DNA from: Microlunatus phosphovorus NM-1
GTDB taxonomy: Bacteria; Actinomycetota; Actinomycetes; Propionibacteriales; Propionibacteriaceae
Assembly: GCF_000270245.1 (NCBI RefSeq)
Contig: NC_015635.1
Coordinates: forward strand, 3,968,001-4,032,000
Direction of reading: 5' to 3'
DNA: 64,000 nt
In this document: positions 18,312 to 57,528 of the stretch, in pieces
Layout of the letters: each line of letters begins with the position of its first letter
How positions within the stretch are numbered: the first letter of the stretch is position 1
The notes under the pieces: generated by a model
What the model was told of the DNA's origin: nothing
Seen by the model: the letters and a program-made list of their open reading frames with translations, nothing else
The model's database searches: none
Program-made: the position numbers and the translations under genes

Positions 18312-20879
<2,568 letters not shown>

Positions 20880-20885
20880 GTTCTC

Positions 20886-21018
20886 GTCGACACCCGTCGC
20901 GAGCGGCCGTGAGGCGGAGCGCCCGGTCCTGTCTGGACTGAGGAGAGAGCAGACAACGCTTTATCGTCTGCGATCGACGAGGGAAGACAGGACCAATCGG
21001 CGCGCAGCGGAGCAGCGA
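20886..21018 (+). repeat. structured intergenic repeat, copy 1
   Basis: This is the first of two adjacent 133-bp units, both opening GTCGAC and containing CGTCGCGAGCGGCCGTGAGG. Inside it an outer stem GGTCCTGTCT (20925-20934) pairs perfectly with AGACAGGACC (20985-20994). Nested within, GCAGAC (20949-20954) pairs with GTCTGC (20966-20971) around loop AACGCTTTATC. No open frame fits. The unit follows the pepN stop by 6 nt and might act on pepN mRNA. Confidence 0.85.
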
Positions 21019-21151
21019 GTCGACGACTCCCGTCGCGAGCGGCCGTGAGGCGGAGCGAGGGCTCCGTCTGGAACGACGAGAGAGCAAACACGTCTTTCCG
21101 TTTGCGAACGAGGAGCGAAGACGGAGTCTTGGGAGCGCAGCCGAACAGCGA
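21019..21151 (+). repeat. structured intergenic repeat, copy 2
   Basis: This second 133-bp unit is directly abutting. The outer stem is CTCCGTCT (21062-21069) with AGACGGAG (21119-21126); the inner stem is GCAAAC (21084-21089) with GTTTGC (21100-21105), loop ACGTCTTTCC. Stem bases differ from copy 1 on both sides, so pairing is kept by paired changes. The unit ends at another GTCGACGAC. Confidence 0.85.
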
Positions 21152-21162
21152 GTCGACGACTA

Positions 21163-21555
21163 CTACAACAAACCGGCGGCGTGCAGGGTCTCGGGGTGAT
21201 GGGCGATCTCGCCGAGCTGGGAGATGCCGCGAGCCAGACCGTTGACGAACAGCCCGGCCAGGAACGAGGAAGTCATCGTCGCGACAGCAAGCCGGCAGTC
21301 GGCATCGCTGAGATACTGGCGAGTGTCCTGCCCGGTCACGATCTCGAGCGCCCGCGCATCCGGGTCACACAGCACCAGCACCGAGTTGTCGGGTCGTGCC
21401 AGCTGACCGTGCAACGCCAGTGCGTATGCCCGGGCGTCGGCACCCGCCGGTCCGATGTAGGCCTCGAAGTCGAGATCGCTGACCCGCCTGGCCATGGCCA
21501 GGGCGTTCTCGATCTGCCGACGGTCGCTGAAACTCAGACCTTCACCACCGAGCAC
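21163..21555 (-). CDS. DUF5130 family protein (TPM-like)
   Basis: This 130-residue protein of the actinobacterial DUF5130 family, related to TPM domains, has [20 protein letters not shown] at the N-terminus, then FEAYIGPAGADARAYALALHG and VLVLCDPDARALEIVTG. The start is the GTG at 21555, preceded by AGGGGGC at 5 nt; the frame is open to 21615. It overlaps the end of the upstream membrane-protein gene by 14 nt and is probably coupled to it. Function is unknown in the family. Confidence 0.8.
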   Translation of the reverse strand: MLGGEGLSFSDRRQIENALAMARRVSDLDFEAYIGPAGADARAYALALHGQLARPDNSVLVLCDPDARALEIVTGQDTRQYLSDADCRLAVATMTSSFLAGLFVNGLARGISQLGEIAHHPETLHAAGLL

Positions 21556-41901: not shown

Positions 41902-41939
41902 CCGTCGCAGCGCAGCCGGCGCGGCCGGGAGTGCAGGAG

Positions 41940-41981
41940 CGGATCTAGCCGAGACACGTCTTTCCGTCTCGGGTCGATCCG
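41940..41981 (+). repeat. structured intergenic repeat, copy 3
   Basis: Outer stem CGGATC (41940-41945) with GATCCG (41976-41981); inner stem CCGAGAC (41949-41955) with GTCTCGG (41966-41972); loop ACGTCTTTCC, identical to copy 2. The stem bases are different again. It lies 39 nt after the marR stop. The surrounding 158-nt gap contains no other obvious feature. Confidence 0.8.
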
Positions 41982-42059
41982 TGACGAACGAGCGGCCCCC
42001 GAGCGCCGGCGAGCAGCGCAGTACGTAGAGACCCCGCTCCCGTACGATCGGCATCGACC

Positions 42060-57323: not shown

Positions 57324-57361
57324 CTGGCTGTCGTCACTCGCTGTTCGCGACGCGCTCAAGA

Positions 57362-57425
57362 CTCTGCCTTCCCTCGTCGACCGCAGACGAAGAGCGTGTC
57401 TGCGTTCTCCTCAGTCCAGGCAGAG
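57362..57425 (-). repeat. structured intergenic repeat, copy 4 (inverted)
   Basis: It is in the opposite orientation to copies 1-3. Outer stem CTCTGCCT (57362-57369) with AGGCAGAG (57418-57425); inner stem CGCAGAC (57382-57388) with GTCTGCG (57398-57404). On the minus strand the loop is ACGCTCTTC, and the GGACTGAGGAGA and CGACGAGGGAAG flanks match copy 1 almost base for base. Two copies of GGTCGCTCGCGACG follow to 57516, echoing the flank of copies 1 and 2. It occupies most of the gap between tRNA-Arg and the DUF2200 gene. Confidence 0.85.
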
Positions 57426-57528
57426 CCGCGCTCTGCTCTCGGTCGCTCGCGACGGGGCTCGCTCGCTAACGCTCGCTCGGGGAAACGGGCGCTCCGCTGC
57501 GTGGTCGCTCGCGACGGGCTCGCTCAGG

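Follow-up and report, generated by a model that had tools for sequence, protein, structure and literature searches.

The elements described here are members of a large family of hairpin repeats, about 110–135 bases long, which is apparently undescribed. One strand of the unit can form a single long hairpin, and this fold is kept while the letters of its stems vary. The units lie mostly between genes and are multiplied head to tail, and they form genome-specific groups that are present at some sites which are empty in related genomes. What evolution maintains seems to be the shape of the single strand, and not its sequence. Such a family is probably a mobile non-coding repeat, spread by an enzyme that would act on the folded single strand, likelier as DNA than as RNA.

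The analysis started from the window, which is the whole stretch of 64 kb covering positions 3,968,001–4,032,000 of the single-contig Microlunatus phosphovorus genome (5,683,123 bases). A preliminary description of this stretch had proposed four elements of one family in intergenic gaps. The stems and loops it quoted are all found in the window sequence, and the neighbouring genes are indeed those of aminopeptidase N (Peptidase_M1), a MarR regulator and tRNA-Arg. The sites are real as well; the lengths assigned to them were too short, and the true units are longer (Table 1). An example of this is the span 41940–41981, which holds only the inner hairpin of the copy 3 unit. The grouping into a single family holds: copies 1, 2 and 4 are members of subfamily A, and copy 3 belongs to a sister subfamily, D.

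Table 1. Repeat units and their parts in the 64-kb window (window coordinates; R1 and R2, covariance models of the unit and of its core)
Feature	Position	Strand	Basis
Copy 1, subfamily A, full unit	20894–21027	+	R1 135.5 bits; R2 core 20925–20994, 74 bits
Copy 1, 10-bp stem P4, 5′ side	20925–20934	+	Partner 20985–20994; core extraction, covariation
Copy 1, apical hairpin P5 (GCAGAC/GTCTGC), loop AACGCTTTATC	20949–20971	+	Sequence and fold
Copy 2, subfamily A, head-to-tail with copy 1	21030–21160	+	R1 134.4 bits; R2 core 21060–21128
Copy 3, subfamily D	~41907–42019 (ends approximate)	+	Fold and sequence type as in L334, L335 and L336
Copy 4, subfamily A	57330–57455	−	R1 135.6 bits; R2 core 57360–57427, 83.9 bits
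Further copy, truncated 5′ end, upstream of copy 4	57486–57518	−	By eye, resembles the subfamily A 5′ end

Over the window, R2 recovers copy 1 (E 6.9e-16), copy 2 (E 9e-14) and copy 4 (E 2.6e-18), and its alignment (A6) included copy 4 and not copies 1 and 2. Copy 3, without the conserved arms of the other three, scores 11.7 bits with R2 and is absent from the R2 matches at E ≤ 1 across the whole window. Its reading as a chance look-alike was withdrawn, as a minimum of four other copies, including a tandem pair, share sister subfamily D with it. A short GAGCGAGCGTTAGCGAGCGAG stretch separates the truncated copy from copy 4, and a similar stretch precedes other copies. The 3′ ends of several units abut a convergent gene and seem to provide its stop codon (CTA on the + strand; window 21159–21161); in the window, the stop codon of the DUF5130 gene lies at the 3′ edge of the element.

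The genome holds many more copies of these units. Thirty genome loci were reached through a 13-base core of copy 1, among them 23 true copies by eye, and these 23 together with copy 2 formed the model R1. The genome search with R1 gave at least 115 places at E ≤ 1 among the 150 candidates scored out of 6233 at first look. Subfamily A accounts for at least 81 units at 66 bits or more, 108–135 nt long, with three shorter than 120 nt. The sister subfamilies, at E ≤ 0.0062, add at least 14 units of the same general design (12 of B and two of C), and the remainder consists of four short derivatives and 16 weaker, unclassified matches. Subfamily D, found by its loop only and possibly larger, occupies at least five places including copy 3, and its two tandem units are 121 bp apart. 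E-values from models built in this way are approximate, and the sequences that went into R1 and R2 are among their matches. Two derivatives of about 63 nt (L135 and L136, near 1501) are without the P4–P5 hairpin, as a deletion at the hairpin would give.

The unit folds into a rod with a 10-bp stem, an apical hairpin and purine-rich internal loops, most of them tandem G-A, that alternate with one or two base pairs. The order of its parts, common to most relatives, was obtained by walking minimum-energy folds outward from the apex; 10 of 43 such folds gave none or another hairpin, window copy 2 included. The apical loop (ACGYNYUUC or near it in Microlunatus) is followed by the apical stem P5 of 6–13 pairs, below which come two to four GA/GA internal loops with, for the most part, one or two Watson-Crick pairs between them. 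Next outward come an asymmetric GGA/GA loop and the stem P4 of about 10 pairs. Outside P4 there is a 3′-side bulge, mostly of three to six bases, then stem P3 and, in many units, a terminal stem interrupted by GA/GA. The unit ends are able to pair, with G-A interruptions. Subfamilies B and C have further GA/GA loops in place of GGA/GA; in subfamily D, one GA/GA and two asymmetric purine-rich loops lie outside the apical stem. The RNA fold z-scores of the four element strands range from −2.97 to −0.51, and the minimum-energy fold of copy 2, which carries a G-C to C-G swap inside the GA region (alignment columns 49 and 88), differs from the others. Such single folds are weak evidence, and the proof is comparative.

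The comparative evidence comes from compensating changes in the stems. In alignment A1, which was not chosen for pairing, double changes occur in 7 of 31 predicted pairs. Across the 66 cores of alignment A5, double changes are seen in 8 of the 10 pairs of P4, and 97.1% of the P4 cells are paired, a figure biased upward because the cores were preselected for P4 pairing. The preselection required at least seven of the ten pairs: from 108 elements, 28 were dropped and eight duplicates merged, and the 72 left, minus eight and plus two dropped ones restored (window copy 2 and L102), make up A5. The covariation score of P4 in A5 is 0.437, against 0.147 for shuffled and at most 0.108 for slid controls. 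Because A5 misaligns P5 in part, the 27 sequences of A6 were hand-picked; over their whole 20-pair core the score reaches 0.467, with the shuffled control at 0.163 and the slid ones no higher than 0.104. A set of elements from GTDB genomes is free of the pairing-selection bias, as the search pattern lay outside the eight pairs tested. The set analysed comprises 122 matches at 119 loci, and in its 92 distinct arm pairs 82.6% of the cells are Watson-Crick, against a mean of 46.1% and a maximum of 51.9% in 1000 shuffles. The unpaired GGA/GA and tandem G-A positions change little across genera, which in the GTDB sets is partly required by the search pattern. The paired stem changes with a conserved structure which the preliminary description had read from four copies are therefore upheld, with covariation far above both the shuffled and the slid controls.

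The fold belongs to one strand. With RNA parameters, the better fold is that of the element strand, and not of its complement, in 77 of 78 distinct units of subfamily A, in all 11 of subfamilies B and C, in 24 of 27 units from genus relatives and in 79 of 82 GTDB units; DNA parameters give 70 of 78, 11 of 11, 26 of 27 and 71 of 82, respectively. In the GTDB elements, G-T mismatches are more frequent than A-C mismatches, at 37 against 20 (p = 0.033), and the inner six pairs alone have 29 against 9 (p = 0.0017). A folded single strand is favoured over a duplex cruciform because the strand energies differ and G-T exceeds A-C. This asymmetry fits RNA as well as single-stranded DNA; GNA triloops and G-U pairs occur in RNA too. 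Of the two, single-stranded DNA is the likelier folded molecule, since the units often lie against transcription, have no recurrent neighbour and carry, outside Microlunatus, a heptamer that is stable as DNA. This heptamer, GCGNAGC, stands between the arms in 78 of 122 GTDB cores, with a density of 6.6 per kb on the element strand and 0.32 on the other; 34 further cores have the less strict form G-GNA-C or C-GNA-G, perhaps by chance, and the last 10 have none. In PMC4686876, GNA mini-hairpins of d(GCGNAGC) are described as extraordinarily stable DNA structures, that is, as a structural motif and not an element family, and the Microlunatus apical loop ACGYNYUUC differs from them in not being of the GNA type.

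The family occurs in many actinobacteria. R1 at E ≤ 0.01 matches 10 of 147 genomes of the bacterial family, all of them Microlunatus (15 genus members were seen in the set, including the window's own genome). At the same threshold, R2 matches 13 of 20 genus genomes, again with the window's own; 12 of these have five or more matches, and six carry 40 to 97 core matches each. In a class-wide sample (R2, E ≤ 0.001, strict filters), 9 of 394 genomes were positive: two of the genus, one of another family of the order and six of one further family. The pattern scan of GTDB genomes gave at least 119 further stretches, and the 80 matches listed are all Actinomycetes by title. The genera among the matches listed include Kribbella, Actinomadura, Herbidospora, Nocardioides, Streptosporangium, Nonomuraea, Amycolatopsis, Virgisporangium, Williamsia and Gordonia. 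With about 100 units in the genome, matches in most of the genus genomes and many other actinobacterial genera, the search for further copies speaks for the new family that had been proposed. Six IMG/VR contigs labelled viral (L339–L344) have the core pattern, and plasmids gave no match for the two elements searched.

The placement of the units in the genome is mostly intergenic: 62 of the 64 arrays of subfamilies A to C lie between genes, and 20 of the 64 hold two or more units. Compared with control gaps of at least 120 bp, the elements prefer convergent over divergent gaps, 22:10 against 7:22 in the genome (p = 0.0008) and 13:11 against 9:46 in the GTDB loci among the matches listed (p = 0.001). 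The GTDB orientation set consisted of 82 cores, of which 8 could not be resolved and 2 overlap a gene call, and all gene calls came from a codon-usage finder trained on the window and applied to the other genera too. Within gaps between co-oriented genes, 22 genome copies run with the genes and 8 against them (p = 0.016); the GTDB set gives 28 with and 20 against (p = 0.31), and the pooled count is 50 with and 28 against (p = 0.017). The orientation is thus moderately biased toward transcription, yet more than a third of the copies in such gaps oppose it. The neighbouring proteins have little in common: no Pfam family occurs in more than 3 of the 124 scanned (out of 125), and a regulon reading was rejected on this ground. 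A 3′ flank near CAACACTGTCAGTGG is common by eye to seven copies (L035, L057, L090, L092, L096, L097 and L114), and in several of these flanks a TANGAT-like hexamer and a start codon follow about 11 bases on, an arrangement suggestive of a promoter or of a preferred target.

The spread of the units can be followed in their sequences and at matching sites. When 27 units of relatives and 16 of the genome's own were compared, in 28 of 42 cases the nearest neighbour was a unit of the same genome, against a permutation mean of 7.1 and a maximum of 16. At one site in a genus other than Microlunatus, both flanks were matched in 16 of 16 genomes. By R2, G472 has four units at this site and G551 one; G551, with flanks that share 98% identity with the G472 flanks, also retains the stub of another unit. 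The other 14 genomes have no R2 unit at this site at E ≤ 0.1 (the best match, E 0.63, lies outside the gap); by eye, the gap is without a unit in 13 of them, and in G553 the flanks are about 6.3 kb apart. Such presence and absence at matching sites is a trait of miniature inverted-repeat transposable elements (MITEs). For the window site, a relative of pepN is found in 18 of 20 genus genomes, and among these 18 R2 matches the window's own locus only. In G149, the nearest relative, the convergent gap between pepN and DUF5130 measures 64 bp and has no model match, compared with 290 bp in the window, and the same genome has five R2 matches elsewhere. The remaining pepN loci say less because the gap is long (418–1174 bp in the other eight loci with DUF5130 seen) or DUF5130 was not seen (eight loci). 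A target site duplication is not visible at the window site in comparison with G149, where the spacers are not alignable. In the GTDB set, both flanks match in four locus pairs (L193/L211, L220/L233, L235/L263 and L246/L284), and elements are kept there between some species.

The comparison with known RNA families gave no name for these units. In the window, Rfam yields only two tRNAs; six element-holding loci gave three matches at E ≤ 5, none at the element, and a riboswitch or ribozyme known to Rfam was rejected accordingly. A hammerhead-like core, with CTGANGA as its core letters, was dropped, there being no room for stem I. The family is not described in the open-licence literature found, and an earlier report in subscription papers may exist; at least one of four core letter strings occurs in 37 papers, and none of the 15 of these that were listed is on bacterial repeats by title.

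REP elements are handled strand-specifically as single-stranded DNA, and the gene of their IS200/IS605-like Y1 transposase is flanked by inverted REPs. REP and BIME sequences resemble the family in being intergenic, palindromic and high in copy number and in keeping their pairing under change. PMC2817692 describes REP elements as associated with a Y1 transposase and as short palindromes that have GT(A/G)G as a head at their foot. Compared with that account of gammaproteobacterial repeats, the units are about 110–135 nt and not short palindromes, they stand head to tail and not in alternating arrays, they are without a GT(A/G)G head, and they occur in Actinomycetes, in the window's case in a genome without Y1_Tnp. 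The conserved 5′ end of subfamily A is CCGTCGCGAGCG, with no such head. The Y1_Tnp domain (PF01797) has 0 matches in the M. phosphovorus genome, compared with matches in 5 of 14 control genomes, and an IS200/RAYT system was rejected for this genome, no Y1 transposase having been found.

ERIC and bcr1 are further bacterial repeats of similar size. MITEs and the 100–170-bp repeats (RU-1/2/3, ERIC and bcr1) are like the family in size, in being non-coding and intergenic and in looking mobile, but the conserved unit is a rod interrupted by G-A, and no clean terminal inverted repeats, target duplication or parent insertion sequence were found for it. Integron attC sites are mobilised as a folded single strand that has extrahelical bases, and their core boxes are not apparent by eye in the family. 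For the RU-1/2/3 repeats, the comparison is with the listing entry of PMC2759123. The available text of a MITE review (PMC10969869) has no occurrence of 'Actinobact' or 'Actinomycet', and that of a stem-loop survey (PMC2267715), which includes Mycobacterium and Corynebacterium, none of 'Streptomyces' or 'Actinobact'. Because the features of the known kinds differ and the surveys are silent, the family is placed among dispersed structured intergenic repeats outside any named family. A transposase, an autonomous copy or a target duplication was not found, and exact end-motif lists inspected by eye gave no orphan 5′/3′ end pair at a spacing suitable for an autonomous element. The reverse-transcriptase domain RVT_1 is present in 12 of 20 genus genomes, four domains lying in the M. 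phosphovorus genome (G000:C1:2024196-2024858, 1243088-1243687, 2866414-2867049 and 5232631-5233086). It is absent in G041, which has 51 core matches, and present in G059, which has none; a simple SINE-like spread driven by reverse transcriptase was rejected, as RVT_1 does not follow the elements across the genus.

The mobile repeat is probably moved by an enzyme supplied in trans, which would recognise the folded purine-rich strand by its internal loops and apical loop and would move or copy that strand. The folding strand could be single-stranded DNA exposed during replication or strand processing, and tandem arrays might arise from repeated insertion beside a copy or from slippage at the hairpin. 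The chief rival, which we regard as distinctly less likely though worth serious attention, is a duplicated and dispersed functional RNA, acting in transcript 3′ ends or as a small RNA, with its fold kept by a role in stability, termination or protein binding. A strand-specific fold with covariation that tolerates G-U pairs is what such an RNA would have, and the enrichment in convergent gaps in both sets, the co-oriented upstream gene in 44 of 64 arrays, the 22 of 30 genome copies that run with their genes in co-oriented gaps and the sites common to different species agree with it; the orientation bias in the genome leaves room for a transcript-level role. Against it stand the 28 of 78 copies in co-oriented gaps that are antisense to both neighbours, the lack of a recurrent neighbour gene family and the empty sites in relatives, and the stretch 20700–21400, inspected as one stretch and for one promoter type, has no sigma-70-like promoter and no T-run terminator. 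From the functional RNA first suggested, the covarying single-strand fold is retained, and the copies behave as a spreading repeat and not as a fixed regulatory RNA.

The other structure suggested at the outset, a DNA cruciform, belongs with a more general reading of the units as double-stranded elements of chromosome architecture, either extruded as cruciforms or bound, like BIME, by a nucleoid or topology protein. The mostly intergenic position, both orientations, tandem arrays and many copies would suit it, but G-A loops on one strand become T-C mismatches on the other, the folding energies of the strands differ, and G-T exceeds A-C mismatches. A symmetric cruciform is accordingly unlikely, as one strand folds better, and the double-stranded reading as a whole appears improbable. 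Still less credible is neutral debris, in which hairpin-prone, GC-rich intergenic DNA grows by slippage and the pairing comes from palindrome formation instead of selection. Tandem arrays and deletion derivatives do exist, as it would expect; yet the stems change in matched pairs, the unpaired GGA/GA and tandem G-A stay (partly as the pattern requires), and a conserved asymmetric internal loop is not predicted by slippage.

The preferred reading, a mobile repeat that spreads as a folded single strand, may extend beyond this genus. We tentatively consider that the repeats could represent a widespread class of actinobacterial mobile elements, in which the unit of heredity would be a folded strand of Watson-Crick steps and tandem G-A with a small hairpin cap. 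An enzyme family so far unconnected with such repeats, and not of the Y1 type in the window's genome, would recognise that strand in the form of single-stranded DNA (or RNA). If this is true, a class of spreading repeats has been overlooked in the intergenic gaps of actinomycetes, a group of soil bacteria and major producers of antibiotics. The strict single-strand fold would define what the missing enzyme must recognise and thereby guide a search for a strand-specific transposase or copying system of a new kind. Annotators would gain a starting covariance model.
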